A DNA stretch of 38,735 nt from Myxococcales bacterium (GCA_023248745.1 JAHFDZ010000021.1:1-38735), one strand, 5' to 3'. Positions 1,109 to 19,408 are shown, counted from the stretch's first letter. Notes: generated by a model from the letters alone, not told the origin. Program-made: numbers and translations.

Positions 1109-4100
1109 TCAACTGAACAACGTTTCGAGATCGCCCTTCGTCAGTTTCTTTGCGCCGCCTGCGTCTTCGCTCAGGACGGCTCCGACCAGTTCACGTTTCT
1201 TGCCGCCGAGTTCGAGAATTTTCTCCTCAATCGTGCCCTTCGCGAGCAGGCGATACATCGTGACGACCTTTGTTTGACCGATGCGGTGCGCGCGATCGGT
1301 TGCCTGATCTTCGACGGCTGGATTCCACCAGGGATCGAAGTGGATAACAGTATCGGCCGCCGTAAGGTTGAGGCCGCTTCCACCCGCCTTGAGCGAAATG
1401 AGGAACACCGGAGGGCCGTCGTCGCGTTGAAAATTGTCGACGCATGCCTGGCGATCTTTCGTCGACCCATCGAGATATTCGTAACCTATTTTGTCCTCTT
1501 TCAGCGCACGACGAATCAGTGTGAGCATCGACACGAACTGGCTGAAGACGAGCACTCGGTGGCCACCTTCAACGCACGTCTGAAGGAGCTCGCGCAGCGC
1601 GGTTAGCTTCCCTGAATCGTCGTCTGAAAATTCGCGAGGAAGGCCAAGTAGGCGCGGATCGCAGGCTGCCTGACGCAACCGTGTGAGCCCCGCGAGAATC
1701 TGAATCTGCGACTTTGCGAGACCATTCTTTTCGACTTCGCCCATGACTTGAGCGCGCACTTCTTTGAGCACCTGCGCGTAGAGCGCACCCTGTTCGCCTG
1801 CCAGCTCGCAGTACTGATCGGTCTCAATCTTTTCGGGGAGATCGCGCGCAACTTCTGCCTTCGTGCGTCGCAAGATGAACGGATGGATCGTTGCTCGGAG
1901 GCGCTTCGCCGCTTTTTGATCACCTGCATCGATGGGGCGCGAGTAACGCTCTTCGAACTTATCGAGAGGCCCAAGGAGCCCACGGCTTACGAAATCAAAG
2001 ATGGACCAAATCTCGGAGAGGCGGTTTTCGATTGGGGTGCCCGAGAGCGCGAGCCTTCGATCAGCCGGGAGACGCTTCGCCGCGCGCGCCGTTGCAGAGT
2101 GCGGGTTCTTGATCTGCTGCGCCTCGTCGAGGATGACGTAGCGCCACTTGATCTTTGAGAGGAGCTCTTCATCACGACGCAAGAGGGCATAGCTCGTGAC
2201 AACGACTTCTGCTTCGTCGAGCTCGTCTTGTCGGTCTTTGCGTTCGCTGCCATGCCACAGCGCGTGCTTGAGCGACGGTGCGAACTTGTTCATCTCAAGT
2301 TCCCAATTGGTCACCACGCTTGTGGGTGCGACAATGAGAACCTTGAATTTGTGATCTTCGGACTTCTTGTCCGCTGCCTTGACAGCAAGCAGTAGCGCGA
2401 TCGTCTGCAGCGTCTTGCCAAGGCCCATGTCGTCAGCGAGCACGCCGCCGGAACCGATTTCGTGAAGGAACCAAAGCCAATGAAAGCCCTGCTCTTGGTA
2501 GGGTCGAAGCTGCGCCTTGAGCGTGGTGGGCTTCTTGATGCCCTTGATCTCGTCAATTTCTCGCAGCTTCTTGAAGAGATCTTTTGCGCCATCACCAACT
2601 TGCACGCGATTGACATGCTCGAGCAATTCTTCGATGCGGCCCGCTTGGGACAAAGGAAGTTTGCCTCCGTTACCGCCGCCAGTGGCAAGGATCTCGGCTT
2701 GTCGTGCGAGCACTTCGCGCACTTTTGCGAGATCGATGCGAGCGAACGAACCATCGGCGAGCCTGACATAACGTCGGCCTTCTCCGAGACAACGCGCAAG
2801 CTCGTCTTGCGTGACCGCGACGCCGTCGGCCTCGAAGCTCAACCTCAACGACAACCAATCAACGCCACTCGAAATTCGTGCGCTCGCACTGAGATCGGCC
2901 GACCGAACCTGAACGTCGACGAGATCGTCAGGAACAAACAGATCCCAGTCTTCGGGCAAGGTCCCTACGCCCTCCGTCCAAAAACGGATGGCCTGATCGC
3001 CGTGCGCAACGAAACGATTGCCGTCGTCTGCAGCCCTTAGACCCAGCTCAAGGAGTGTGGAGGCTACGTGCTGTTGCGCAACAATATCGCAACGAATACA
3101 ACGAGCGCGGCGATGTCCGCTGCTATGGTCAATTGGCTTGACTATAACGGGCATCGTGAATCCGTCCGCGCGAACGTCCACTTCAACGTCGTCGTAAGCC
3201 GCGCGAAGCGACACTTCTGCTTCGGTGAGTGAGCCGCCAGCAGCAACGCGGAATGTGGGAACCATGTCGACCACATCAGCAACTTGCGACAGCTCTGGTA
3301 GTTCGGCCCCCACCTCTGTGGCTACTTTCGGCAGCCCTTCCGCGATCAGTTGCGGCAAGTTGTCGATGGGCTCAGAAATTGACGGCAGCTTTGTGAGGCG
3401 GCGGATCGCCGCAGGCGACACGCGGCGATCAATGGGCCACGCCCATCCTTCTTGCGCGTCGATGTACCAGCCTGGGCTGCCTTCGAGCCACGTTCCGTGT
3501 GCCGTTGAGAACTTTCGCGGATCACCAGGGCGGTGAAACGAGGCACGCACAACCACGCTATCGCCATCATGCGAAAGCTCGAGATCAAACCGAGGTCGAA
3601 GCGGCTCGTCAGCAAAACGTAACTCCATGAGTTGCGGTTCAATGACCACTTTTCGCCCTTTGAGAAGCGGCAGCAGATCGCTCGCATCCTCGCCGCGCAC
3701 TTCGATCGCACCACGACGAGCTGCCGCACTCTCAAGACGGGAGAGCATTCGAATCGCTTCACGATCCATGGTGGGCGCTTGATCTTGCGCGATAAGTAAC
3801 GCCGATGGTGACAATGGCGTGCGCGTAGACGGCTCAAGAAGCGCTACAGAGATCGCGCCGGGCTTCACTTGCAGACGAAACTCGATGGTGCGCGGAACAG
3901 GCGGAATGGGCTCTGGCATCCATCGATCAATTCCATTGCCATCCGAGGGTCTCGTCAGCACCGCGTGCGCAGCGCGCATCGCCCGAGCGCGCGCGCGCCT
4001 CGATCGACGGGAGTTTCCTTCGGAAGTTGGCGCGGCGTAAACAGCGGTCGACGGAGCTTCGCTCGCGGGCTGACTTGGCATTGGGCGAGTTGTGCCACGG

Positions 4101-4444
4101 GTTTGATCACGCGCTGCAATAAGCAACGCCGCAACGTGTTTGCAGTGTCCACTTATTTTCGCAAATGTCGGACAGGAACACTGGGACGCGAAGCCTCCCG
4201 GCGTAAGCTGCACCGAGACCGCATAGGGTTCTGGATCGCTTCCCCGCACCAACCCTCGAGTCGATGCCTCTTCGATCGCAACGTCGTTTACCGAGCCGCG
4301 TCGAATGTAGTCGTAGCCACGCAAAAACGCGCGCGCACCAACCAAGCGCCGCAGTGCGCGATCGCTCAATGCCGATAGAGCCTCTTGAAAAGGAGATCCC
4401 AACTTCGCTATCCGCGCGGATGACTCGCGCGCCTTCTTTCGCAA
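1109..4444 (-). CDS. SNF2-family DEAD/DEAH-box helicase with N-terminal SWIM zinc finger
   Basis: A 1111-residue Swi2/Snf2-type double-stranded-DNA translocase. The N-terminus carries a SWIM zinc motif, C89-x-C91...C101-x-H103, expected to bind DNA or protein. A long poorly conserved middle region follows. The SNF2 ATPase begins near 643 (LRPYQEQGFHW) with Walker A DDMGLGKT at 671-678, the DEAQ box at 773-776 and SGTP at 801-804. Helicase-C motifs follow: VFSQF near 965, LKAGGSGLNL near 1018 and DRAHRIGQ at 1050-1057. All core motifs look intact, so it should be an active translocase. Bacterial SWIM-SNF2 proteins resemble HepA/RapA relatives, but the exact role (transcription recycling, repair, chromosome maintenance) cannot be told from sequence. 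The start is TTG at 4444, just after an in-frame stop, with no clear Shine-Dalgarno; an internal start a few residues later is possible. It stands alone as a transcription unit. Confidence 0.93.
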   Translation of the reverse strand: MRKKARESSARIAKLGSPFQEALSALSDRALRRLVGARAFLRGYDYIRRGSVNDVAIEEASTRGLVRGSDPEPYAVSVQLTPGGFASQCSCPTFAKISGHCKHVAALLIAARDQTRGTTRPMPSQPASEAPSTAVYAAPTSEGNSRRSRRARARAMRAAHAVLTRPSDGNGIDRWMPEPIPPVPRTIEFRLQVKPGAISVALLEPSTRTPLSPSALLIAQDQAPTMDREAIRMLSRLESAAARRGAIEVRGEDASDLLPLLKGRKVVIEPQLMELRFADEPLRPRFDLELSHDGDSVVVRASFHRPGDPRKFSTAHGTWLEGSPGWYIDAQEGWAWPIDRRVSPAAIRRLTKLPSISEPIDNLPQLIAEGLPKVATEVGAELPELSQVADVVDMVPTFRVAAGGSLTEAEVSLRAAYDDVEVDVRADGFTMPVIVKPIDHSSGHRRARCIRCDIVAQQHVASTLLELGLRAADDGNRFVAHGDQAIRFWTEGVGTLPEDWDLFVPDDLVDVQVRSADLSASARISSGVDWLSLRLSFEADGVAVTQDELARCLGEGRRYVRLADGSFARIDLAKVREVLARQAEILATGGGNGGKLPLSQAGRIEELLEHVNRVQVGDGAKDLFKKLREIDEIKGIKKPTTLKAQLRPYQEQGFHWLWFLHEIGSGGVLADDMGLGKTLQTIALLLAVKAADKKSEDHKFKVLIVAPTSVVTNWELEMNKFAPSLKHALWHGSERKDRQDELDEAEVVVTSYALLRRDEELLSKIKWRYVILDEAQQIKNPHSATARAAKRLPADRRLALSGTPIENRLSEIWSIFDFVSRGLLGPLDKFEERYSRPIDAGDQKAAKRLRATIHPFILRRTKAEVARDLPEKIETDQYCELAGEQGALYAQVLKEVRAQVMGEVEKNGLAKSQIQILAGLTRLRQAACDPRLLGLPREFSDDDSGKLTALRELLQTCVEGGHRVLVFSQFVSMLTLIRRALKEDKIGYEYLDGSTKDRQACVDNFQRDDGPPVFLISLKAGGSGLNLTAADTVIHFDPWWNPAVEDQATDRAHRIGQTKVVTMYRLLAKGTIEEKILELGGKKRELVGAVLSEDAGGAKKLTKGDLETLFS

Positions 4445-4667: not shown

Positions 4668-5435
4668 ATGCGACTTCGTTTGCTCACCGCCCTCATTCCT
4701 CTGGCGCTCGTCGCCTGCAGCTCACCGGTCGCCAGCAATCTCGAAGAGTCCGACGCCAATCGCGTTGTGCTCGCGCTCGATCGCGCAGGCATCGGAGCTT
4801 CGAAAGACAGCGACCCCGTCTCGGAGGGCCGTTTTCGCGTAAGCGTAGCGCGGCAGGACATTGCACTCGCGCTGTCCGCAATGAGAGCCGAAGAGCTTCC
4901 ACGCGAGCGTCCCAAGGGGGTGCTCGACACGGTGGGCAAGGGCGCGCTAATCCCGAGCGCCGCGGCCGAGCACGCGCAAATCGTCGCCGCGACGAGCGCC
5001 GAAATTCAACGCTCGATCGAGTCGGTCGATGGCGTTCTCTCCGCGCGCGTGCACATTCAAATTCCCGTCGCCGACCCGTTCACGACGACGCCACAGAAGG
5101 CCACCGCAAGCGTGCTTGTCGAACACCGTGGGACGACACCGCCGTTGCCTGCAGAAGCGATTGCAAAGCTTGTAACTGGCGCGGTTGCAAATTTGCCCGC
5201 GCAGGAGGTTGCCGTTGTGTTTGTACCACGCAGCATTCCGGTATCGGCCCAGGCAACGCTCTCACCACTCGGACCGTTCTCAGTCGCCCGCGGCTCGGTC
5301 CGACCCATGCAACTCGTCGGTGGGTTGCTCTTTGTGCTTCTCGCAATCTTCGGCGTTGCGTGTGCCGCACTTGCCCTTCGGCTTTCTCGTGTTCAAGCTC
5401 AACTTTCGGCGGCGTTGTCACGAGGTGAAGCGTGA
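4668..5435 (+). CDS. sctJ: SctJ-like lipoprotein (type III secretion inner-membrane ring / YscJ-HrcJ-FliF family)
   Basis: A 255-residue lipoprotein with a short signal peptide ending in the lipobox L14-V-A-C17. The body follows the SctJ pattern: LEESDANRVVLALDRAGI, then a D-x-x-x-ALSAMRAEELPRE segment, IPSAAAEHAQ, EIQRSIESVDGVLSARVHI, ASVLVEHRG and a final domain near 155-190. A single transmembrane helix at about 214-238 and a short cytoplasmic tail complete the canonical SctJ layout. In injectisomes this protein forms a multi-subunit ring in the inner membrane. No other secretion gene (sctC, D, R, S, T, U, V, N) is visible here. Its stop overlaps the start of the MlaF-like ATPase by 4 bp (GTGA), so the two are probably translationally coupled. 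That pairing is unusual and suggests a ring or scaffold used outside a normal injectisome. The family call is firm; the role is open. Confidence 0.85.
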   Translation: MRLRLLTALIPLALVACSSPVASNLEESDANRVVLALDRAGIGASKDSDPVSEGRFRVSVARQDIALALSAMRAEELPRERPKGVLDTVGKGALIPSAAAEHAQIVAATSAEIQRSIESVDGVLSARVHIQIPVADPFTTTPQKATASVLVEHRGTTPPLPAEAIAKLVTGAVANLPAQEVAVVFVPRSIPVSAQATLSPLGPFSVARGSVRPMQLVGGLLFVLLAIFGVACAALALRLSRVQAQLSAALSRGEA

Positions 5436-6184
5436 TCGATATTCGCGACATTTCGAAAACGTTTCACCTCGGAATCGAGGGCACGCGAAACGTGCTATCA
5501 CGTGTTACATTTTCTGTACCAAGGGGATGCCTCTACGGTCTCATCGGTCCAGGCGCATCCGGCAAGAGCGTCCTCCTCAAGTTGATCACGGGCCTCATGA
5601 AGCCCGATCGCGGCTCGATTGTCGTCGACGGAAGCGACATGACGGCTGCAAACGATCTCGAGATCCAAGAGCTGCGCAAGAAGTTTGGCTTCCTCTTTCA
5701 GAACAACGCGCTCTTTGATCACATGACGGTCTTCGACAACGTCGCCTTCCCGTTGCAGCGCCTCTACGCGCCCCCAGAGGAGGAAACTCGCACGCGCGTG
5801 ATTGAACGGCTTCGGTGCGTTTCTCTACCGGGCTTCGAAGACCGCCTTCCCCCAGGGCTCTCTGGAGGCCAGAAAAAGCGCGTCGGCGTTGCACGCGCCA
5901 CCATCACTCAAGCCCCGTACGTCCTCTACGACGAACCTGCTGCAGGCCTCGATCCCGTTACGTCACAGAAGATTTTCGATCTCTTGCGCGCAGAGCAACG
6001 AGCATCAAACGCCACCGTGATCATGGTCTCAAGCGACCTCGATCGATTGCTGACGGTCACCGACCGCGTCGGCATGCTCTATCGCGGCGAGTTGATCTTC
6101 GATGGCAGCACCGAAGAAGCAAAGACCACCTCCGAGCCGCGCGTGAAGCAGTTCGTTCACGGCCTAACCGAGGGCCCGCTTTAA
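5432..6184 (+). CDS. mlaF: MlaF-type ABC ATPase with Ser in place of the H-loop His
   Basis: A 250-residue ATP-binding subunit of the MlaF/Ttg2A (MCE transport) type. Visible motifs are Walker A GPGASGKS (39-46), Q-loop FLFQNNALFDHM from 87, signature LSGGQ (143-147), Walker B VLYDEP (164-169, catalytic Glu168) and D-loop AGLDP. The switch region reads MVSSDLD, so the expected H-loop His is Ser201; the codons gtc-tca-agc-gac confirm it. FQNNALFDHMTVFDNVAFPL is typical of MlaF relatives. The GTG start overlaps the sctJ stop by 4 bp. No permease adjoins it; the nearest MlaE genes are 5.4 kb downstream on the same strand, with another ATPase whose defect is the opposite one. It may therefore be half of a heterodimeric motor. 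Alternatively it is a divergent MlaF paralogue with its own partners. Confidence 0.88.
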   Translation: MIDIRDISKTFHLGIEGTRNVLSRVTFSVPRGCLYGLIGPGASGKSVLLKLITGLMKPDRGSIVVDGSDMTAANDLEIQELRKKFGFLFQNNALFDHMTVFDNVAFPLQRLYAPPEEETRTRVIERLRCVSLPGFEDRLPPGLSGGQKKRVGVARATITQAPYVLYDEPAAGLDPVTSQKIFDLLRAEQRASNATVIMVSSDLDRLLTVTDRVGMLYRGELIFDGSTEEAKTTSEPRVKQFVHGLTEGPL

Positions 6185-6236
6185 TTGAGTTGGGGAGTGC
6201 GGGACGCTTGGAAGTGTCGGACGTAACCACCCATTT

Positions 6237-6308
6237 ATCGCTTTAGCTGATGCCTTTGGTATCGCTTGGGCTGATGCCTTTGGTATCGCTTTAGCTGATG
6301 CCTTTGGG
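6237..6308. repeat. 24-bp tandem repeat, three copies
   Basis: Three head-to-tail 24-bp units at 6237-6260, 6261-6284 and 6285-6308 share the core gctgatgcctttgg. They differ at a few positions (tta versus ggg near the middle, and a final t or g). Low divergence suggests recent slippage or expansion. Confidence 0.85.
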
Positions 6309-6326
6309 ATCTTTCGACTGCGGGGG

Positions 6327-6391
6327 CCTGATCCTCTCGCCTGATCCTCTCGCCTGATCCTCTCGCCTGATCCTCTGGCCTGATCCTCTCG
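6327..6391. repeat. 13-bp tandem repeat, five copies
   Basis: Five consecutive copies of cctgatcctctcg start at 6327; only the fourth differs, by one base (ctgg for ctcg). The array lies 18 bp after the 24-bp array and 100 bp before the next start codon. The near identity and 13-bp period make it a candidate variable-number repeat. It has no spacers, so it is not a CRISPR. Confidence 0.9.
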
Positions 6392-6491
6392 CCTGGCACG
6401 GGCAGGACATGCCCACACGATGTGTGCGAAGCACGCAGGGATCGGAGATCGCTTCTTTAAGGGATCGAGCAAATCGCCGTACTTTTTTGAT

Positions 6492-7097
6492 GTGAAGGCG
6501 TTTTCGCATCGCCCCATTTCGATTGCAATTTTGTGCGTCACTGCGTCCAGCGCGCATGCGCAAGACGGGTCGAATCACGCACAATGGCCGAATCACGCAC
6601 AATTCGCACCCCCATCGATCGTGAGTCAGCAGGCATTTGCCGGTCCCTACGTTCGGCTGAGACCCGCTTTCGATGAAATCGATACGGGAGCCCTTGATCG
6701 TCGATTGGCCCTCAGCGCCGGCCTTGCCGCACTTGCGGCTGGGTTCGCAGTCGAAGGCTACGTCACGCTCATCTCGCCCTGCGAAACTTATGATCGCTCG
6801 GTGCCGTTCGCACGCACCTGCATGTCAGGCTCTACTGAGCCGAGGCTATTGCGCCAATTTTCTGCAGCCCCAACGTTGCCGGGAAACGCCGCGGCGATAT
6901 TGGGTACGGTTGCTGCGGCAGGATTTGCAACGTGGTTTACGGTTTCGCTCGTTGAGCGTTTCGGCAAGCGATGGTCGACATCGATCTGGCACCTCAATTC
7001 GAATCACATGAACAAGCCGCTCGCACTAAGTCGAGGGACCATGTCCGTCGGACTCAACTTTGGGTTCGGAACGCTGGGCGTTGCGGGATCCTTCTAG
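6492..7097 (+). CDS. exported or membrane protein of unknown function
   Basis: I do not recognise this family. From GTG at 6492 it has 201 residues and begins with a good signal peptide: basic start, hydrophobic ISIAILCVTASS, and a likely AHA cleavage site near residue 22. ATG at 6420 is also in frame but would bury this signal, so GTG is preferred. Two further hydrophobic stretches (LSAGLAALAAGFAVEGYVTL and GNAAAILGTVAAAGFATWF) could be membrane segments. The C-terminus, with SVGLNFGFGTLGVAGSF, resembles the end of an outer-membrane strand. Near the mature N-terminus an 18-bp direct repeat (15 identical bases at 6571 and 6589) gives NHAQWPNHAQF. It could be an envelope protein linked to the upstream sctJ-mlaF pair, but the repeat-filled gap weakens that. 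A Cys pair lies in the region between the hydrophobic stretches. Confidence 0.6.
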   Translation: MKAFSHRPISIAILCVTASSAHAQDGSNHAQWPNHAQFAPPSIVSQQAFAGPYVRLRPAFDEIDTGALDRRLALSAGLAALAAGFAVEGYVTLISPCETYDRSVPFARTCMSGSTEPRLLRQFSAAPTLPGNAAAILGTVAAAGFATWFTVSLVERFGKRWSTSIWHLNSNHMNKPLALSRGTMSVGLNFGFGTLGVAGSF

Positions 7098-7189
7098 CGT
7101 TAGACGCGGAATTCTCGTCATCCGCGCTTCTTCGCGGCACGCGCTAAATTCCTTTGACGCCTTGGACAGGCCGCGAGAAATGCTAGCGA

Positions 7190-8239
7190 ATGCGTTACTG
7201 GATCCTTCTTCCTCTACTCTTGGTCGCTTGCGACAAGGAAAAGCCACAGGAAACGCCAGCCCCCGCTGCGAGCGAAAAGGCGAGGCCCGATAAGAAGGGG
7301 CCAAAGTTGGGCCTGCTCTCGGATCCGGGAGAGCCACCAACGCGCGGAGGTCCTCCGAGCTCACCCCCTGGCGCTGGCGGCGCGAAGGCCGCTGGCGATG
7401 GATTGGTCAACACAGTTGACAAAGGCAGCGAACCTCGCCGCGAGTTCCGCTACGCGTTCAAGACCGGGGAGACCGAAACATTCACATACGAACTTCGCAT
7501 GACCATCACGGGCGAAGCCGGCCAAGGCAAGACGACGAAAGATCAAAAGGTCCCTGGCATTCGGTACGAACTCACCGCAACAACCAAAGAGGTGAGCGCC
7601 GACGGCACGGGCCTAATCGAATGGTCGCTCGACAAGGTCGACGTCCTTTCGGAGCCAGGACCGACTGCCAAAGACGTCGCTGCAGAACGCGAAGCTTGGG
7701 AGCAACTCAAAGGAACGCTGGGCAAGAGCGTCATATCGCCAAGAGGGTTGACCATCGTTGCCGAGTTTGGGAGCAAGGACCAAACGAGAGCCCAAATGCT
7801 CGAGACTCTTCGAGGACCACTAACGGACATCATCGTGCCGCTTCCCGAGGAGGCTGTTGGTAAGGGCGCGAATTGGACCTACCGTCGCAAGCCAACAAAC
7901 CGAGAGATTGCGAATCTTGTCCAAGAAGAGTCGTTCACTCTCGCCGACGTCACCGCGACTGGCGGCAAGGTCGCAAGGCAATACAGCGAGCTTGCACCGG
8001 TCCAAGAAATTGGAGCCGGTCAGATTCCGGGTGGCAAGATCTCGCTCGACGTATTCAAGAGCACGAGCACCTCGACAAGCGTGTTCGATCTTTCCAAATT
8101 CGTTCCCAAGAGCGAAGCATCGCTCACGATGGAAAAACTCGTTACCGCAACCACTGCAGACGGCCAGAAGGCAACTGTGATGAAGGCCAACGTCAAGAGC
8201 ACCGCAAAGTTCGCGCCAGTAACGCCGAAGAAAAAATAG
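7190..8239 (+). CDS. DUF6263-like lipoprotein
   Basis: A 349-residue lipoprotein: MRYWILLPLLLVAC gives lipobox L11-V-A-C14, followed by a low-complexity Pro/Ala/Glu/Lys linker to about residue 80. The folded part starts around FRYAFKTGETETFTYELRM and alternates beta-strand-like segments (TGLIEWSLDKVDV, NWTYRRKP, GGKVARQYSELAPV). This pattern resembles DUF6263-type proteins found in Planctomycetes and Myxococcota, whose function is unknown. The domain name is from memory and should be treated as probable. No catalytic motif is evident. ATG at 7190 is the only start that places the lipobox at the N-terminus. It converges with the next lipoprotein gene with a 5-bp gap, so no independent terminator fits between them. 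Confidence 0.8.
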   Translation: MRYWILLPLLLVACDKEKPQETPAPAASEKARPDKKGPKLGLLSDPGEPPTRGGPPSSPPGAGGAKAAGDGLVNTVDKGSEPRREFRYAFKTGETETFTYELRMTITGEAGQGKTTKDQKVPGIRYELTATTKEVSADGTGLIEWSLDKVDVLSEPGPTAKDVAAEREAWEQLKGTLGKSVISPRGLTIVAEFGSKDQTRAQMLETLRGPLTDIIVPLPEEAVGKGANWTYRRKPTNREIANLVQEESFTLADVTATGGKVARQYSELAPVQEIGAGQIPGGKISLDVFKSTSTSTSVFDLSKFVPKSEASLTMEKLVTATTADGQKATVMKANVKSTAKFAPVTPKKK

Positions 8240-8244
8240 TCAAT

Positions 8245-9630
8245 CTACTTACCATTCGGAGCGAACGTTCGCCTAATCGCTGCAGTCGTCCCAGCATCGC
8301 TATCGTCAGCGCCCGTGCTGAGCCAATAAAGCGCGCTCTTTGTCCCCAATCGCACTTGTGTCGCATTCCGTTGCTGGGCCGCAACCGTGAAGACCTTTGA
8401 GGCCGCGCATGCGCCGCCCGAAGGCGTACACATGCGAACTTCGTCCGCGAGTCCGTTTGCGCTGCGATACGTCCACGCAAGGCCAAATCCGTCTGTGTGG
8501 AGGGACTCGGTGCCGAGCTGGGTAGAGACCACTTGGGTGATCGGGTTGGCGCATCCCGATGGTGGACAACTGTAGATCCCACCTGTCACGGAATCGTTGA
8601 AGTAGAGCACTTCACCTTTGGCCTCGATCGTCGTCGGACGAGCGCGCGAAGGATCGACAAATGAATCTGGAGAACACGGATTTGTGTCTGGATTGCTGCA
8701 CGCCGTTCTTGGGCTTCGGTGCACGCCATTTTCGATCGAAGCGTCGAAGATACCGTCAGCCGTAAACGTAAATCGCGTCGGCACCCATTTGTACTTTGCG
8801 ATTTCGAATCGCGTAGCGCTCGCAGGATTGGAGACCAGCGCGATCGAAAAGAGCTTCGCGCCATCGAAGGTGAAAAGCCCGTCAGAACTTCCGAAGAGAG
8901 CGACACTCGGCATATTGGCCACGTAAATTTCGGGCTCTGTGCAAGTTCCCAAAATAGGACAACGTGCAAGACTCGTCGTCGTCGAACCGCTTTGCTTGCC
9001 AAGGAAGTAAATGTGAGTGACCCCTGCTGCCGGCGCGATCACTAACCCTTGCGGCAATGGCAACGCCTCGAACGTCCCTGAGTAAAGCGCCTCGCGATTT
9101 GTGCACTCCGGCAAATCGCATCGGTAGACGCTCTTCTTGTCGTGGAAGTACATCTTCCCAGTCGAGTGAAGCAGGAACGAGCCGGTCGTATCGCCAAGCG
9201 AAGTAACGGCCTTGGCGACGCACTGTCCCTGATTGCACGTGCCGGGATCGTTTGTACCTGAGCCGCAAGCGCGTTCGCACGAGCCACAGTGGTAGCTGTC
9301 TGATTTGAGATCAAGGCAACGCGAGTTGCCGCTGACTTGACACGCCGAATAGGGACTCGCGCAACCAACGACGCAAGCACCTTGCTCACCACAGGTAAAC
9401 GAAAGTCGGCTGGTGTCGATTGCACCTTGGACGTCGCAATCGATACAATTTGGTTTGCAATAGACTTGCGTCTTACCGCATACGGGCTCGGCTTGAGCGT
9501 CGCTTTCCGTGGTCGCGTCGGAAACAACGCTTGCGTCGAAACCCGCGTCTGGAACGCGACCATCGGATGTGTAGTTCGCGCAACCCACCAATGATGCACA
9601 TGCCACAATGAGCGACGATCGAACGAGCAT
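8245..9630 (-). CDS. Cys-rich lipoprotein, paralogue of the upstream neighbour
   Basis: A 461-residue surface-type lipoprotein. The signal ends in L14-V-G-C17, followed by an Asp/Ala/Ser-rich linker (VPDAGFDASVVSDATTESDA). A Cys-rich module at roughly 50-135 ends in CLDLKSDSYHCGSCERACG and CNQGQC, the pattern common in myxobacterial secreted proteins. About 320 residues follow with repeated short strands (TGKMYFHDKKSVYRC, GVTHIYFLG, GLFTFDGAKLFS, GEVLYFNDSVTGGIYSC). These look like blades of a beta-propeller, each often carrying paired Cys. No enzymatic motif is visible. ATG at 9630 has a strong Shine-Dalgarno (GAGGTG). It follows the paralogous gene by 15 bp, so the two are probably one transcript. 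The binding partner is unknown; cell-surface recognition is a guess. Confidence 0.82.
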   Translation of the reverse strand: MLVRSSLIVACASLVGCANYTSDGRVPDAGFDASVVSDATTESDAQAEPVCGKTQVYCKPNCIDCDVQGAIDTSRLSFTCGEQGACVVGCASPYSACQVSGNSRCLDLKSDSYHCGSCERACGSGTNDPGTCNQGQCVAKAVTSLGDTTGSFLLHSTGKMYFHDKKSVYRCDLPECTNREALYSGTFEALPLPQGLVIAPAAGVTHIYFLGKQSGSTTTSLARCPILGTCTEPEIYVANMPSVALFGSSDGLFTFDGAKLFSIALVSNPASATRFEIAKYKWVPTRFTFTADGIFDASIENGVHRSPRTACSNPDTNPCSPDSFVDPSRARPTTIEAKGEVLYFNDSVTGGIYSCPPSGCANPITQVVSTQLGTESLHTDGFGLAWTYRSANGLADEVRMCTPSGGACAASKVFTVAAQQRNATQVRLGTKSALYWLSTGADDSDAGTTAAIRRTFAPNGK

Positions 9631-9635
9631 TCTCC

Positions 9636-9641
9636 CACCTC
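9636..9641 (-). promoter_or_regulatory. ribosome-binding site GAGGTG
   Basis: On the minus strand GAGGTG lies 5 nt before the ATG at 9630. It sits in the 15-bp gap after the upstream paralogue's stop and supports both the chosen start and co-transcription. Confidence 0.7.
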
Positions 9642-9645
9642 GAAG

Positions 9646-11088
9646 TCAGTACGGAACGTGGGCGCGAAACAGATTGATAGCCTTCGTCGTGTCTACCTGA
9701 ACCCAGTAGATAAACTCGCCCGAGACTCGAACGTTCCCGCTGTGTTCAGCATCGGCGGTGACGTATCCGCCAAGCTGCGCTGCGCTGCATCCGTTGAGCA
9801 AGTCTGTGCAAAAAGAAACGCCTCGATTGGTGAAGTAAACGGCCTTCGCATCAGCCGTAAGACCAGCGATAGTCGGCAAGCCCGAAGCGATCACTTTTAC
9901 ATTCGTCGCACCACAATTGGCTGGCGTCGTTGCGACCGAACACGAAAGAATGCGTGTCGCTCCCGGCGCGGTCGAATTCTCCGCGTAAAAGAGTGTGTCG
10001 TTCACGACATCGTAAGCAATGTTGACGTTTGGCGTGAAGGAAACGACCTTTTCGGCGGTGCCGCACGCACCGGTTCGCGGACAACGGAAGACACCGGCGC
10101 CCATCTGAAAAAAGTAGACGTGCGTCGACGTGAGGATTGGTTGCGCGATCCCCGTCGTTTGAGTCACGAGTGTCGTCACCCCAGCAGACGCGCCCACATC
10201 GATCTGCAAGAGTGCACCTGAAGCATCCGCGAGGTAGAGGCCCGTGCCATCACCTGCAAGGCCAAGCGCTCCTCTTGCCAAGTGCTTCGTTGGAGTAATG
10301 CACACGCTCCCAATGCTGCAGCGTGCAACGAACGAAGTACCTCCTCCATCCACAGTGTCGGTCGCCATGTAGAAAGCGATCGGAGGCGTGGCGGCGGCGA
10401 CGATGTGCTGGGGTGCAGTCGGCGCGGTAAAAATCGTAGATGGGGTAATGGCGTTGGGGTTTGCACACGTTGGAAGCGTGCAACTATGAACTTGATTGTC
10501 CTTGTGAAAGAGAAGGACGTTCGTGCTCGTGATTGCGAGCGCTGACTCCGCTGACGTGAGACTCGCGAGCGAGATAGGAACGCACTTGCCTGCCGCGCAC
10601 TGTCCGGGCAGCGCCGAACCCTTGCCGAGACCACAACGCTGCACGCAAGAACCGCAAGCGTTCGGATCTGAATCAAGCGACGAACAGACGACGCCAGCAT
10701 CCGAATTGCAGGCCGTTGCTGTCGCCTTGCAGGCGGTTGAGCAGCCGGCATCAGCACCGCAAACGGGATTGCGATTGGGAGCATCGACGAGGGTGTTGTC
10801 TACCTTGCAGTCGAGGCACTTGCCACCACAGGAAATGAGCGCGCCAGGGCAGCCGGCCTCGGCATCCTTGCCGGCATCAGCAGCATCAGCGTCGTCCGCT
10901 TTGACATCGACCGCCTGATCGCGAGGCGCGTCGAATGGCGCGTCCGTATTGATCGTCGCGTCCACCGGCGCATCGATCGCCGCATCGGGCACCGAGCTGT
11001 CGCCAGCATCGTTGGGCGCCAACTCGAACGTCGTACACCCGAGCATCGACGTTGCGATCCACACGACCGATAGGCTGTACTTTCGCAT
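9646..11088 (-). CDS. Cys-rich lipoprotein, first of a tandem paralogous pair
   Basis: A 480-residue lipoprotein with the same plan as its downstream neighbour. MRKYSLSVVWIATSMLGC gives a signal with M15-L-G-C18. A long Asp/Ala-rich linker follows (DAAIDAPVDA, DADAADAGKDAEAG), then a Cys-rich module (CGGKCLDCKVD ... CSSLDSDPNACGSCVQRCG ... CAAGKC). A strand-rich domain containing ITSTNVLLFHKDNQVHSC, STHVYFFQMGAGVFRC, NDTLFYAEN and AKAVYFTNRGVSFC completes it. The repeated VYF/LFY strands ending in Cys suggest a disulfide-decorated beta-propeller. GTG at 11109 is in frame, but ATG at 11088 begins a proper signal peptide and is preferred. Similar domain order and adjacency point to tandem duplication followed by strong divergence. 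Function unknown. Confidence 0.82.
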   Translation of the reverse strand: MRKYSLSVVWIATSMLGCTTFELAPNDAGDSSVPDAAIDAPVDATINTDAPFDAPRDQAVDVKADDADAADAGKDAEAGCPGALISCGGKCLDCKVDNTLVDAPNRNPVCGADAGCSTACKATATACNSDAGVVCSSLDSDPNACGSCVQRCGLGKGSALPGQCAAGKCVPISLASLTSAESALAITSTNVLLFHKDNQVHSCTLPTCANPNAITPSTIFTAPTAPQHIVAAATPPIAFYMATDTVDGGGTSFVARCSIGSVCITPTKHLARGALGLAGDGTGLYLADASGALLQIDVGASAGVTTLVTQTTGIAQPILTSTHVYFFQMGAGVFRCPRTGACGTAEKVVSFTPNVNIAYDVVNDTLFYAENSTAPGATRILSCSVATTPANCGATNVKVIASGLPTIAGLTADAKAVYFTNRGVSFCTDLLNGCSAAQLGGYVTADAEHSGNVRVSGEFIYWVQVDTTKAINLFRAHVPY

Positions 11089-11144
11089 CTGTTCAAAAGA
11101 ACTTATCACTCAGAACGAGCTTTCGTCCTCTTTCCCGGTGTCCC

Positions 11145-11510
11145 ATGTTGCTCGCATTTCTCTCTCTCGTTGCTTCATTCGCGCCAGCGGGACGCAGCGA
11201 GCAGCACGCCGACGACGAGCCGAGCATGATCACAATGGTGGTCGCGAATGTGCTGTCAATTTTGTTGACACACTTCGTGCTCCGCCGCGATGAAAGCAGG
11301 CTTACAGAAGCGCAGCGTGCACGGGCGTGGCTGCCTGCTTCACGCATGGCGGCGCTCGCATTTGCTCCCTTCGCGCTTCTGATTCACTACGTTCGCACCC
11401 GTCGAACCGTGGTCGGGTTTCTGTTCGGCGTACTCGTAGTCGCGTGTGTGATGCTCGTCGTTGAGTTGATTGCGGTGGCAACCGACGCGCTTGTGACGTT
11501 GGTATTCTGA
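11145..11510 (+). CDS. small multi-pass membrane protein upstream of the Mla operon
   Basis: A protein of 121 residues from ATG 11145. It shows a hydrophobic N-terminus (MLLAFLSLVASFAPAG) and three further likely helices: MVVANVLSILLTHFVL, MAALAFAPFALLIHYV and the long C-terminal segment VGFLFGVLVVACVMLVVELIAV. The frame is open back to 11052, but that would overlap the divergent lipoprotein and add a poorly hydrophobic leader. I do not recognise the family. Its 98-bp spacing to mlaE and shared strand make it a possible member of the lipid-transport operon. It could also be an unrelated small membrane gene. The 56-bp gap to the divergent lipoprotein gene must hold both promoters. Confidence 0.6.
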   Translation: MLLAFLSLVASFAPAGRSEQHADDEPSMITMVVANVLSILLTHFVLRRDESRLTEAQRARAWLPASRMAALAFAPFALLIHYVRTRRTVVGFLFGVLVVACVMLVVELIAVATDALVTLVF

Positions 11511-11608
11511 GTCCCTGCGTTACCACTTCCAAAACGAGCGAAGGGCAGCAATTGGTGTCGCTGCGTCATTCTCGACGAGAGCGCAATTTGCCGTGTACCG
11601 TAGAGACA

Positions 11609-12424
11609 ATGTCCGCAGCGCAGCCGCTGGAAGCACCTAAGAATTCCGGTCTTACCAACCTGCTCGAATCGATTGGTGGCTCTGCCCTCGCGATCTTCGA
11701 GGTTGTCGGCGGCATGACCGTGCTCTTCGCGCGCATTCTCAGTCGGCTCGTCAGGTTCCAGTTTGACTTGCCAGAATTCAAACGTTCCCTCTACAAAATG
11801 GCCGTCAAGTCGCTGCCCATTGTGTTCGTCGTCGCGCTGTTCACTGGCGCTATCGTCGTCATTCAAGCCGCGCCATTGGTCAAGCGCATTTCGGGCGCCG
11901 AATCGCTGCTCGGCTGGGGCGCGGGGTTCGGCGTCTTGCGCGAGATCGGACCCTTGTTAACCGCCTTGACGATCTCGGGACGCGTTGGCGCGAACAATAC
12001 CGCCGAGCTTGGAACGATGGTGGTCACCGAGCAGATCGACGCGCTGCGAGCGCTCGCGATTGATCCGATTTCGTTTCTCATCGTGCCCCGATTTTTGGGC
12101 ATCATCATCACGCTCTTCGCGATGGTGCTCTACGCAGACGCACTCGCACTCGTTGGCGCTGCCTACACCGGCCAAGGTTTTTTGGGCGTCACACCGCGCA
12201 CCTTCTATGACGGGCTGACGACGCTGCTTCACTTCAGCGACGTCGCAAACGGTCTCATCAAGAGCATTGTATTCGGACTCATGATCGCGCTCTCGAGTTG
12301 CCACTTTGGACTTGCAACCAAAGGCGGAGCGCCAGGTGTTGGACGCGCCGTCAATGCGATGGTTGTCGCAGCTGCAGCAGGCATCTTCATCGTCGACTTT
12401 CTCGTCAGCTTTGTGATGGGCTGA
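11609..12424 (+). CDS. mlaE: MlaE-family permease, copy with intact ExGP motif
   Basis: A 271-residue permease of the MlaE/Ttg2B (MCE ABC) family, normal in length. An N-terminal amphipathic/interfacial helix is followed by about five membrane segments. The family core is clear: LREIGPLLTAL (110-120), GRVGANNTAELGTMVVTEQ and IDALRALAIDP. EIGP and the E-x-G-T-M segments form the cytoplasmic coupling region that contacts the ATPase in this family. ATG at 11609 is preferred over an in-frame upstream start at 11552, which would add a charged leader not seen in the family. The stop is followed after 2 bp by the next permease start, so the two permeases are tightly coupled. In known systems MlaE is a homodimer; here a second, divergent permease is available as partner. 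Confidence 0.92.
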   Translation: MSAAQPLEAPKNSGLTNLLESIGGSALAIFEVVGGMTVLFARILSRLVRFQFDLPEFKRSLYKMAVKSLPIVFVVALFTGAIVVIQAAPLVKRISGAESLLGWGAGFGVLREIGPLLTALTISGRVGANNTAELGTMVVTEQIDALRALAIDPISFLIVPRFLGIIITLFAMVLYADALALVGAAYTGQGFLGVTPRTFYDGLTTLLHFSDVANGLIKSIVFGLMIALSSCHFGLATKGGAPGVGRAVNAMVVAAAAGIFIVDFLVSFVMG

Positions 12425-12426
12425 AA

Positions 12427-13254
12427 ATGAGCGACCAAGCCGAAAACCCTCGCATCGCTGACCAGGGCATCATCCATGCCGAAGTCTACGACCTGGGGGC
12501 TCAAGCGCTTTCGCTGATCGACGCTGGGCGTGGTCTCTACTCGCTCTTTGTCAGGACGCTTTACTACACGTTTCGGGGGCGGCGTGAAAAGGGCGCTGTC
12601 GCCAAAGAGATGTTTGAGATCGGCAACCGATCACTTTTCTTTCTATGCGTCACGATGGGCTGCATCGGGATGATCATGGTCTATCAATCCGGCCTGCAAA
12701 CGCAGCGCATCGTCCCCGACTTTTCGCTTCTGGGCCCTACGTATTTGGAACTCCTTGTGCGCGATTTCGCGGCTTCGATCGGAGCCCTCATGCTCTCGAC
12801 GCGTGTCGGAGCAGGTATCGCAGCAGAAATTGGCTCTATGGTCGTTACCGAGCAGGTTGACGCCTTGCGCATGAGCGCGGCAGACCCTGTCGACTACCTT
12901 ATCGTTCCGAAGTTCTTGGCGAGCCTTCTGATGACCACGGTGCTCATCGTCATCGCGGGCACAATTGCGTTCATCACCGGATTTGCAACCGCCAGTGTCT
13001 TCTTCGACGTGTCAGCTGACGCCTACTTCAGCATGAAGCTCATCGACGCCGGCGACGTCATTACAGGCGCCACCAAGTGTGTTGCGTATGGCGCCGCCAT
13101 ACCTATCGTGAGCGGCTATTGCGGCCTCTCTACGCACGGTGGCTCCGAAGGCGTGGGTTGGGCCACGACGCGCGCAGTCGTCAATTGCTCGCTCGCAATT
13201 ATCATTTTGAACTTCTTTATCTCGGGCGCGGCATTGATCATCTTCCAGCCTTAA
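12427..13254 (+). CDS. second MlaE-family permease, divergent (ExGP replaced by DFAA)
   Basis: A 275-residue MlaE-type permease. The conserved tail of the family motif is present (STRVGAGIAAEIGSMVVTEQ, VDALRMSAADPVDY), but the preceding ExGP reads D113-F-A-A116. The N-terminus is longer and more charged than in the first copy (IHAEVYDLGAQALSLIDAGRGLYSLF). The C-terminal half (GAAIPIVSGYCGLSTHGGSEGVGWATTRAVVNC) is typical of the family. ATG at 12427 lies 2 bp after the first permease stop; the frame is open upstream to 12298, but that part is the first permease read in another frame. It has diverged far from the first copy, so this is an old paralogue, not a recent duplication. It probably pairs with the first permease to form an asymmetric pore. 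Confidence 0.9.
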   Translation: MSDQAENPRIADQGIIHAEVYDLGAQALSLIDAGRGLYSLFVRTLYYTFRGRREKGAVAKEMFEIGNRSLFFLCVTMGCIGMIMVYQSGLQTQRIVPDFSLLGPTYLELLVRDFAASIGALMLSTRVGAGIAAEIGSMVVTEQVDALRMSAADPVDYLIVPKFLASLLMTTVLIVIAGTIAFITGFATASVFFDVSADAYFSMKLIDAGDVITGATKCVAYGAAIPIVSGYCGLSTHGGSEGVGWATTRAVVNCSLAIIILNFFISGAALIIFQP

Positions 13255-13264
13255 GTCACCGCCA

Positions 13265-14008
13265 ATGATCTCTTTTCGAAACATCAAGAAAGCTTTCGGA
13301 TCGAAGCCGGTGCTCCACGACGTGTCGTTCGACGTCAACAAGGGCGAGGTGTTCTTCATCATTGGCGCATCGGGCGTTGGCAAAAGCGTGCTCATCAAGC
13401 ACTTGATTGGCCTGCTCTATCCCGACGGCGGCGAGATCTGGCTCGATGGCGAAGAGATCTCTCGCAAAGACGAAAAGGGCATGTTCCCCGTGCGCATGAA
13501 GTGCGCGATGGTCTTTCAACATTCCACGCTCTTCGACTCGATGACGTGCGTCGAAAATGTCGCGCTACCTTTGCGAAAGCACAAAGGGATGTCGCTCAAG
13601 GACTCGGTCGCCGAGGCGCGCCGCCGGCTCGAGATCGTTCACATGGCCGAATTCGCCGAACGCTACCCGCCCGAACTAGGCGACGGCATGCGCAAGCGCG
13701 TCGCCATCGCACGCGCGCTCACCTTGGATCCGCAATACGTGCTCTTTGACGAGCCAACGACCTCGCTGGACCCCGTGAGCGCTCGACGGGTAGACGCACT
13801 GATTCGCGAATTGTCAGACAAATTGGGTGTGACATCGATCGTGGTGAGCCACGATCTCACAAGCATCTTCACAATCGCCGATAGAATTGTGATGCTGTAC
13901 AAAGGTAACGTCCGTTTGCTTGGCACACGGGCGGAGTTTAAGAATTCGACCGATGGGGTCGTTGCACAATTCATCAATGGCCGCGCTGAAGGCCCGATGG
14001 ATGCGTAA
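13265..14008 (+). CDS. mlaF: MlaF-type ABC ATPase with degenerate signature motif (LGDGM)
   Basis: A 247-residue MlaF/Ttg2A-type ATPase in the main lipid-transport operon. Walker A GASGVGKS (34-41), Q-loop VFQHSTLFDSM from 83, Walker B VLFDEP (catalytic Glu163), D-loop SLDP and H-loop VVSHD (His196) are intact. The signature, normally LSGGM/Q, reads L138-G-D-G-M142; the codons cta-ggc-gac-ggc-atg confirm it. Loss of the signature Ser usually weakens the composite ATP site formed with the partner's Walker motifs. The other MlaF in this window has an intact signature but a defective H-loop, which is complementary. The gene starts 10 bp after the second permease and precedes mlaD by 37 bp. The C-terminal VAQFINGRAEGPM is typical of MlaF proteins. 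Confidence 0.92.
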   Translation: MISFRNIKKAFGSKPVLHDVSFDVNKGEVFFIIGASGVGKSVLIKHLIGLLYPDGGEIWLDGEEISRKDEKGMFPVRMKCAMVFQHSTLFDSMTCVENVALPLRKHKGMSLKDSVAEARRRLEIVHMAEFAERYPPELGDGMRKRVAIARALTLDPQYVLFDEPTTSLDPVSARRVDALIRELSDKLGVTSIVVSHDLTSIFTIADRIVMLYKGNVRLLGTRAEFKNSTDGVVAQFINGRAEGPMDA

Positions 14009-14045: not shown

Positions 14046-15068
14046 ATGGCGCAAGAGCGTTCACTTGAAGTCAAAGTCGGTGCACTTATCCTGGTGTCAG
14101 TGTTTATCCTTGGTGGCTTCATCTTGATGATGGGCGGACTGAGCCTCGAGAAGACGTATCCCATATATGTCTACTTCGATAATCCTGGCGGCCTTCAATC
14201 GGGCGCCGCCGTCAAGATGGCAGGCCTCAAGATCGGATCCGTCAAAGAACTGGGATTCAATACGTCCCACGTCAATCCGAAGACGGGTAAGAGCTCGCTT
14301 GTAAAGGCGCGCGCGAACATCGAAGTGAAGTATCGCGACATCATTCGGAAAGACGCCGACTTTTACGTCACATCGCAAGGCGTCCTTGGCGAGCAATTTC
14401 TCGCGATCGATCCGGGTACGGGCGCGACGCCACCCCTCGGCGAGAACGCAGAAGTCGACGGCATCGGACCTCCTCGACTCGATCTGTTTCTCGCGAAGTC
14501 GTACGAACTTCTCGACACCACCCTCGCCGGCCTTCGCAACAATCGTGAGCTGCTCGGCGACATCTTGACCAACACGGCAGGCTTGCTCAAGGGCCTCAAC
14601 GGAACGGTCACCGAGAATCGCGATCGCATCAACCGCATCGTCCAAAACTTTGAGTCGCTCAGCCAAGAAGCGCTCACGCTCACACAAAACACCCGCCGCA
14701 ACTACGTCGACAATCCCAAGATGCTTCGCACCATCGATAACGTGGAGCACCTTTCGAGCGAAGTCCGACGAGACGCGACTCCGATGTTGAAAGACGCGAA
14801 AGAAGCCATCGCCAATCTCAACCGAATTTCAGCGACGGTGGGCGATCCGAAAGAGATCGATAAGCTCCGCAAGACGCTCGAAGAAGTCGCGCAACTTGCC
14901 TCGAGGGCGAACTCAATTGCGGGCGATACGCAATCGATTGTGAGTCACATCAAGAAGGGCAAAGGCACCGTTGGCGCCCTCGTAATGGACGAAGAGATGT
15001 ACGACGACATGCAAGAGATGGTGCGTGACCTCAAGCACAATCCTTGGAAGTTTCTCTGGAAAGAGTGA
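14046..15068 (+). CDS. mlaD: MlaD-like MCE-domain protein
   Basis: A 340-residue MCE (mammalian cell entry) protein that would hold the periplasmic lipid-binding ring of an Mla-type transporter. One N-terminal transmembrane helix (about 11-33, VGALILVSVFILGGFILMM) is followed by the MCE domain from about 38 (YPIYVYFDNPGGLQSGAAVK, AGLKIGSVKELGF, VTSQGVLGEQFLAIDPGTG). A long C-terminal region, about 150-330, is predicted helical and rich in Asn, Arg and Glu (RDRINRIVQNFESLSQEAL, RRDATPMLKDAKEAIANL). This resembles MCE proteins whose helices bundle into a needle or tunnel, rather than the short E. coli MlaD (about 180 residues). That fits a longer periplasmic conduit. It is the last gene of the operon; no mlaC or mlaB is visible in the window. 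Confidence 0.93.
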   Translation: MAQERSLEVKVGALILVSVFILGGFILMMGGLSLEKTYPIYVYFDNPGGLQSGAAVKMAGLKIGSVKELGFNTSHVNPKTGKSSLVKARANIEVKYRDIIRKDADFYVTSQGVLGEQFLAIDPGTGATPPLGENAEVDGIGPPRLDLFLAKSYELLDTTLAGLRNNRELLGDILTNTAGLLKGLNGTVTENRDRINRIVQNFESLSQEALTLTQNTRRNYVDNPKMLRTIDNVEHLSSEVRRDATPMLKDAKEAIANLNRISATVGDPKEIDKLRKTLEEVAQLASRANSIAGDTQSIVSHIKKGKGTVGALVMDEEMYDDMQEMVRDLKHNPWKFLWKE

Positions 15069-15656: not shown

Positions 15657-16319
15657 TCAGTGAGCGGCGCGTTTGCGATCGATGCCAGGGTGCGATGGGT
15701 CGCCAGGTTCGTGTCGCGGATTGTCGTCACGGCGTTCGCCATCACGATCGACGAAGGACATGAGCAAGTCCTTCTTGTAGATGAATTGGTCGCGCGAATC
15801 GTATGGAACGGCGTGAACGCCAGTGTCCATGCGAATGGCGTCGCATGGGCAAGCTTCGACACAGAAGCCGCAGAAGATGCAGCGGAGTTCGTCAATAACG
15901 AAACGGACTGGGAACCGCTCGTGGCCGCGTCGTGCGTCGCCTTCGGCGTACTCGCCTGGCTCGATGAAGATGCACTGCGCTGGACACGCTGTGGAACAGC
16001 AGAGGCATGCAACGCAACGCGGATCTCCGTTCGCGCGAACTGTGAGTCGGTGGACACCGCGGAATCGCTCCGGATACGGACGCTTCTGCTCTGGATAGGA
16101 GATCGTGCTGATGCCGGGATCGAGTCGTTCGTGCACGGGATCGGGTCGCTCGCCACGAAGCATCTCCTTGGTGTTGGAAAAGAAGTGCTGCATCGACACC
16201 GCAACGCCACGAACCACCTCAGGAATGTATGCCTGCGTCGTAAGGGTCCGTTCGGCGGCCACAACATGCATCGCAGGTGCGCGGGCGCTTACGGGCTTCT
16301 TTGGAAATGTAACTGCCAT
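15657..16319 (-). CDS. nuoI: NADH-quinone oxidoreductase subunit I (two [4Fe-4S] ferredoxin-type)
   Basis: A 220-residue Complex I subunit I (TYKY type) that carries electrons to the quinone site through two [4Fe-4S] clusters. Ligand sets are C102-xx-C105-xx-C108-xxx-C112-P and C147-xx-C150-xx-C153-xxx-C157-P. An extra Cys107 lies within the first motif. The N-terminal VVRGVAVSMQHFF helix and the conserved YPERFRGVHRLTVRANGDPRC are typical. The C-terminus is longer and charged (DRDGERRDDNPRHEPGDPSH). ATG at 16319 is chosen because GAGGAA lies 8 nt upstream; a longer in-frame extension to 16382 overlaps nuoH and is not typical of the family. The gap to nuoH is 31 bp. Confidence 0.96.
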   Translation of the reverse strand: MAVTFPKKPVSARAPAMHVVAAERTLTTQAYIPEVVRGVAVSMQHFFSNTKEMLRGERPDPVHERLDPGISTISYPEQKRPYPERFRGVHRLTVRANGDPRCVACLCCSTACPAQCIFIEPGEYAEGDARRGHERFPVRFVIDELRCIFCGFCVEACPCDAIRMDTGVHAVPYDSRDQFIYKKDLLMSFVDRDGERRDDNPRHEPGDPSHPGIDRKRAAH

Positions 16320-16327
16320 CGTTTCTT

Positions 16328-16333
16328 TTCCTC
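16328..16333 (-). promoter_or_regulatory. ribosome-binding site GAGGAA of nuoI
   Basis: Minus-strand GAGGAA 8 nt before the ATG at 16319, within a purine-rich run. It decides for the shorter nuoI start over the frame extending to 16382. Confidence 0.7.
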
Positions 16334-16350
16334 TTCTGTCACGTTGCGCG

Positions 16351-17766: not shown

Positions 17767-17785
17767 GGACTTTGACCTTTAGCGA

Positions 17786-19369: not shown

Positions 19370-19408
19370 GTCTAGAGTCCGCGTTGCTTAGGTGCGTTAG
19401 TCGCTACG

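Follow-up and report, generated by a model that had tools for sequence, protein, structure and literature searches.

Complementary motif defects in two MlaF-type ATPases suggest an asymmetric MCE lipid transporter in Myxococcota

In ATP-binding cassette (ABC) transporters, each ATP site is composite: one subunit contributes the Walker motifs and the H-loop, its partner the signature (PMC7756269). The E. coli MCE transporter MlaFEDB has the composition MlaF2E2D6B2, with two copies each of one MlaF and one MlaE, and its MlaFEB part is two-fold symmetric, though the lipids and the MCE ring are placed asymmetrically (PMC7790496). Mycobacterial Mce1 contains two different permeases and a MceG homodimer (PMC9882608). 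Among the degenerate-site systems TM287/288, BmrCD, TAP, MRP1 and CFTR, the kinds of lesion include a Walker-B Glu to Asp change, a change in the H-loop and, in the partner subunit, an aberrant signature (PMC5216877, PMC7756269). Here we analyse a locus from a Myxococcales bacterium (GCA_023248745.1 JAHFDZ010000021.1:1-38735), the whole stretch of 38,735 nucleotides being called the window. The locus encodes two different MlaF-type ATPases, MlaF1 and MlaF2, two different MlaE permeases, MlaE1 and MlaE2, and an MCE protein. A sequence-only reading of the window had proposed from the motifs of the two ATPases that they form an asymmetric MCE lipid transporter. Its premises agree with the literature: ATP sites are composite (PMC7756269), and the MCE transporters whose solved structures we found have a homodimeric ATPase (PMC7790496, PMC9882608).

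Like MlaFEDB of E. coli, Pseudomonas and Acinetobacter, the locus has an MlaF-type ATPase, an MlaE-type permease and an MCE protein, MlaF structures are among the nearest solved folds, and both MlaF1 and MlaF2 end in an MlaF-like ...GP terminus. MlaFEDB, however, has one MlaF and one MlaE, whereas the window's system has two different ATPases, two different permeases and one predicted degenerate site. Mce1 (YrbE1A/YrbE1B with MceG) shares the two different permease subunits, and its MceG heads the structural matches of MlaF1, but MceG is a homodimer and here the ATPases differ too. TM287/288, BmrCD, TAP, MRP1 and CFTR resemble the proposed system in having one consensus and one degenerate site with similar lesions; their transmembrane domains are of the exporter type and they lack an MCE protein, whereas the permeases here are of the MlaE family, which sets them apart from type I exporters such as TM287/288, TAP and CFTR. 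The H-loop position is occupied by Ser in CFTR and by Gln in TAP1, and the purpose of degenerate ATP sites is debated. Full-text searches of the open literature, with most subscription journals outside their reach, turned up no MCE transporter described as having heterodimeric or asymmetric ATPases.

Complementary motif states in MlaF1 and MlaF2

Both ATPases are open reading frames at the positions first given, and their motifs (Table 1) bear out the first description of the pair. MlaF1 has Ser201 at the H-loop and retains LSGGQ; motif reading and alignment agree here, as in a profile alignment the 'vSHDV' of the solved A. baumannii MlaF falls on the 'SSD' of MlaF1, with the second Ser in the column of the H-loop His. 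MlaF2 keeps His196 and carries LGDGM as its signature. Its Walker A, GASGVGKS, is intact, while the fourth Gly of Walker A is Ala in MlaF1, a change that the sequence-only reading overlooked and that 102 of the 147 readable sequences of MlaF1 share. MlaF1 also has Q90. Its predicted fold is complete (pLDDT 91), and its nearest solved structures by Foldseek are MceG (8fed, the top match) and MlaF (6xgy/6xbd). The best NCBIfam model for both proteins is MlaF, each scoring under the equivalog cut-off of 441 bits. The ATPases are thus of the MlaF/MceG type, by sequence for both and by fold for MlaF1.

Orthologues carry the same division of motifs. The de-duplicated pool holds 149 MlaF1 sequences (148 fully readable) and 151 MlaF2 sequences (149 readable), each assigned to the reference sequence that it matched best, with some divergent sequences among the references and operon context used for the most distant orthologues. 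SGG is present in every MlaF1, and none of the 148 combines the Walker-B Glu with the H-loop His: their Walker-B/H-loop states are Glu/Ser (102), Asp/His (39), Asp/Ser (3), Glu/Thr (2), Gly-Asp/Ser (1) and Asp/Gln (1). MlaF2 presents the mirror image, with Glu and His in 149/149 and SGG in 0/149; at the signature it has GDG in 123 cases, SDG in 9, GPS in 8, GPG in 4, GPP in 2, and GEG, APS and SSG in one each. At the loci where both ATPases were read together, the states are complementary in 64/64.

The other MlaF families of the genome served as a control. At 31 loci (30 of the C119 type, one of the C390 type) Glu and His are present in 31/31 and SGG in 28/31, which rules out a generic degeneracy of MlaF in the order. 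A defect peculiar to the window genome is ruled out by the same states in the orthologues of both ATPases, and a reading or frame error by their recurrence in distant ones. The complementary defects are not chance, since they recur in 148/148 MlaF1 and 149/149 MlaF2 sequences against 31/31 intact controls.

The lesions themselves differ between lineages. In the window's class, MlaF1 mostly shows the His to Ser change together with the Walker A Ala; in other classes it has the Walker-B Glu to Asp change with a normal Walker A, one sequence combining Asp with Gln. Loci L307-L318, from two families, have a VGPSE-like MlaF2 signature where the consensus is LSGGQ, alongside an MlaF1 with the Walker-B Asp and in one case an H-loop Gln. 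The lesion types as first described therefore apply to the window's class, where Ser is typical at the H-loop, and are too narrow for the others, which have Glu to Asp and signatures such as GPS and SDG. This variety between classes strengthens the case for an asymmetric motor. In the tree, MlaF1 forms one clade (95/82) and MlaF2 a separate clade (100/99), and the MlaF1 lesion types mainly correspond to two deep branches of the single MlaF1 clade. MlaF1 diverges faster than MlaF2, with a mean identity of 52% vs 63%, and is the lower of the two in 99% of comparisons.

The two ATPases also occur together. Of 145 genomes from the window's order, 96 have an MlaF1 orthologue, 100 an MlaF2 and 92 both (Fisher p 2e-23, a value that ignores shared ancestry). 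The expectation that the defects co-occur and never stand alone was thus upheld by these 92 genomes and qualified by 12 single finds, four of MlaF1 and eight of MlaF2. Five of the 12 are explained by a fragment or contig edge: G070 has a truncated MlaF2, G066 and G143 stop at a contig edge beside MlaE1, and G093 and G095 carry MlaF1 fragments at contig edges. In a family with a scattered operon, six genomes each have an MlaF2-type match, an MlaF1 with the Walker-B Asp, one MlaE1 and one MlaE2, although the four genes lie on separate contigs or far apart; the MlaF2 motif was read in 1/6 of these genomes. Two near-complete genomes of the order that are devoid of the pair have MlaE genes only of the C85 and C440 types, with no MlaE1 or MlaE2, and still keep a consensus MlaF. 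This retention and joint loss suggest that MlaF1, MlaF2, MlaE1 and MlaE2 behave as one unit. For family f26, an MlaF2 without its partner was considered and ruled out, MlaF1 and MlaE1 being found on other contigs.

The proposed asymmetric motor and its alternatives

These data present a model where MlaF1 and MlaF2 very probably form a heterodimer under an MlaE1-MlaE2 heteropermease that feeds an MCE ring, the whole being a lipid transporter of the type VIII ABC class whose two ATP sites are unequal. Its substrate is probably a phospholipid or related lipid. We infer the dimer composition and the site chemistry from sequence, that is, from the conserved gene set, the motif states, the co-occurrence and the common loss; to this extent the comparative evidence strongly supports the asymmetric MCE transporter first proposed. 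The assignment to the MCE/Mla type follows from an MlaE-family permease (PF02405 in both MlaE1 and MlaE2) and an MCE-domain protein in the operon (PF02470, 14046-15068). As in degenerate-site ABC transporters, two different nucleotide-binding subunits are encoded together, and the Walker/H-loop lesions of one and the signature lesion of its partner fall in the same site. Because sites are built across subunits, the defects of MlaF1 and the altered signature of MlaF2 share one site only if the two subunits face each other. Lesions that differ between lineages and always strike the same side of the same site are what would be expected if selection had been relaxed at one site of a heterodimer. 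In the solved examples found, though not by definition of the family, the ATPase is a homodimer whose sites are both consensus; no such homodimer is encoded here, as neither subunit could supply two consensus sites.

In the proposed mechanism, site 1 would consist of the MlaF2 Walker motifs, Glu163 and His196 together with the MlaF1 LSGGQ; this consensus site would hydrolyse ATP in each cycle. Site 2 would join the MlaF1 Walker A with Ala42 and Ser201 to the MlaF2 LGDGM; this degenerate site would bind ATP and hydrolyse it slowly or not at all. By analogy with TM287/288, ATP held at site 2 may keep the two ATPases in contact. With both ATPases and permeases different, the halves of such an MCE transporter could be mutated separately, and it becomes possible to ask which site drives lipid movement, what role the silent site has and whether the cycle alternates. 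The decay of the silent site by lineage-specific routes would be a natural record of the residues that are dispensable once catalysis is relieved.

Several points weigh against a MlaF1-MlaF2 heterodimer. Seven genomes have one ATPase and no fragment of its partner (MlaF1 in G139; MlaF2 in G034, G101, G112, G122, G127 and G133), all of them fragmented assemblies of 230-1300 contigs. MlaF1 and MlaF2 lie 7 kb apart in the window, compared with about 1.6-2.7 kb, occupied by both MlaE genes, in most relatives; the wider gap is due to a genus-level insertion between MlaF1 and MlaE1. In the window's class MlaF1 keeps Glu168, and site 2 may have residual activity. Finally, the window genome (6.1 Mb, 459 contigs, 95% complete) contains two further MlaF-like genes with consensus motifs, C119, which adjoins an MCE gene, and C390, which lies away from MlaE and MCE genes, and either could in principle pair with MlaF1 or MlaF2. 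A consensus MlaF elsewhere that pairs with the MlaE genes had been named in advance as evidence that would refute the asymmetric transporter; consensus ATPases are present elsewhere, but so are two additional MlaE genes, of families C85 and C440, and two additional MCE genes.

Pairing of MlaF1 or MlaF2 with C119 or C390 would amount to subunit mixing of the kind known for mycobacterial MceG, where one ATPase serves several MCE systems (PMC9882608). This precedent and the existence of the two genes speak for it, but the lesions of MlaF1 and MlaF2 match site for site in every lineage, and the consensus ATPases have partners of their own, since genomes that lack the pair keep a consensus MlaF and the other MlaE types; we consider such mixing very unlikely. 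It is equally improbable that MlaF1-MlaE1 and MlaF2-MlaE2 are independent homodimeric transporters encoded side by side by coincidence. The scattered-operon family, where MlaF1 adjoins MlaE1 and MlaF2 adjoins the MCE gene, would suit this reading. Separate homodimers, however, would repeat the same lesion in both of their sites, yet the Q-loop and the complementary motifs are conserved in both genes; furthermore, the genomes tested either retain all four genes or lack all four, and at most loci the order is F1-E1-E2-F2, with the two supposed systems interleaved.

A third explanation lies close to the heterodimer itself, namely that MlaF1 has a regulatory or structural role as a pseudo-ATPase and that MlaF2 works alone or at reduced activity. 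The faster evolution of MlaF1 and its place as the catalytically defective partner speak for such a role. The SGG of MlaF1 is nonetheless invariant (149/149), which is relevant only if it completes the ATP site of another subunit, and this makes a pseudo-ATPase the least probable of the three, with hardly any weight in our judgement.

The operon and its neighbours

The usual gene order, seen in relatives of the same order and in several Myxococcota classes, is MlaF1-MlaE1-MlaE2-MlaF2-MCE, and an MCE gene follows MlaF2 both in relatives within the order and in other classes. In 60 genomes both ATPases share a contig, and in 49 of these MlaF1 lies upstream of MlaF2, on the same strand and at a distance of up to 20 kb. 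The five-gene set appears ancient and widespread in Myxococcota. A scan of the sequence collection for named relatives, made with two MlaF2 peptide patterns, includes Sorangium cellulosum, Sandaracinus, Polyangiaceae and Kofleriaceae among the matches listed, and the window accordingly belongs to Myxococcota, probably to the Polyangiales. In Sorangium cellulosum So0157-2, the stretch examined contains MlaF2, MlaE1, MlaE2 and MCE. Two loci (L209 and L217) have two MCE-like open reading frames (ORFs) after MlaF2 instead of one.

Table 1. Features of the window and of related loci
Feature	Coordinates	Strand	Basis and remarks
SctJ/YscJ-FliF-like lipoprotein	4668..5435	+	overlaps MlaF1 by 4 nt; transporter membership unproven
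MlaF1, ABC ATPase, signature consensus, catalytic side defective	5432..6184	+	ORF, profile, motif and fold data
MlaF1 Walker A GPGASGKS, residues 39-46, fourth Gly to Ala42	5546..5569	+	motif reading
MlaF1 signature LSGGQ, intact, residues 143-147	5858..5872	+	motif reading; SGG in 149/149 MlaF1
MlaF1 Walker B YDEP, Asp167-Glu168	5930..5935	+	Glu kept here; Asp in other classes
MlaF1 H-loop MVSSDL, Ser201 replacing His	6032..6034	+	motif reading and profile alignment
Four-ORF insertion, lineage-specific, splitting the ancestral operon	6420..11109		full in L143, part in L162 (same genus)
MlaE1 permease	11609..12424	+	PF02405 214 bits; ORF listed from TTG 11552, Met at 11609 likelier start
MlaE2 permease	12427..13254	+	PF02405 170 bits; start codon read
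MlaF2, ABC ATPase, catalytic side consensus, signature defective	13265..14008	+	ORF, profile and motif data
MlaF2 degenerate signature LGDGM, residues 138-142	13676..13690	+	never SGG in 149 readable MlaF2
MlaF2 Walker B FDEP, Asp162-Glu163, intact	13748..13753	+	motif reading
MlaF2 H-loop VVSHDL, His196 intact	13850..13852	+	motif reading
MCE (MlaD-type) protein, one MCE domain and long C-terminal region	14046..15068	+	PF02470 64 bits
TPR protein at the SctJ-like position	L220:8955-10049, L217:5327-6412, L216:3777-4910

Directly upstream of MlaF1 lies a gene for an SctJ-like lipoprotein, which scores 129 bits with TIGR02544, below the cut-off of 161.95, and 84.6 bits with PF01514. Its predicted fold matches solved SctJ/PrgK/EscJ, and its lipobox Cys17 is invariant. 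The gene occupies the same place in many Polyangiales loci; no type III secretion genes adjoin it in the window, and a stronger match to YscJ/FliF lies elsewhere in the genome. It is a tentative and rather unlikely idea that this Polyangiales lipoprotein is part of the transporter, as a recruited secretion ring that, powered by the asymmetric motor, would form a conduit through the periplasm, either surrounding the MCE ring or placed above it. In other Myxococcota classes the place immediately before MlaF1 is taken by a TPR protein whose start resembles that of a lipoprotein and whose gene overlaps MlaF1 or almost does.

Within the insertion, the ORFs at 8245-9630 and 9646-11109, both on the minus strand, resemble related Cys-rich secreted proteins or lipoproteins. 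Outside the genus, the insertion has weak matches in one locus only (L144). Further upstream in the window, 1109-4444 encodes an SNF2-type helicase with a SWIM-like N-terminus, which is also found upstream in several relatives. Downstream, a nuo (NADH dehydrogenase) cluster occupies 15657-20623 on the minus strand.

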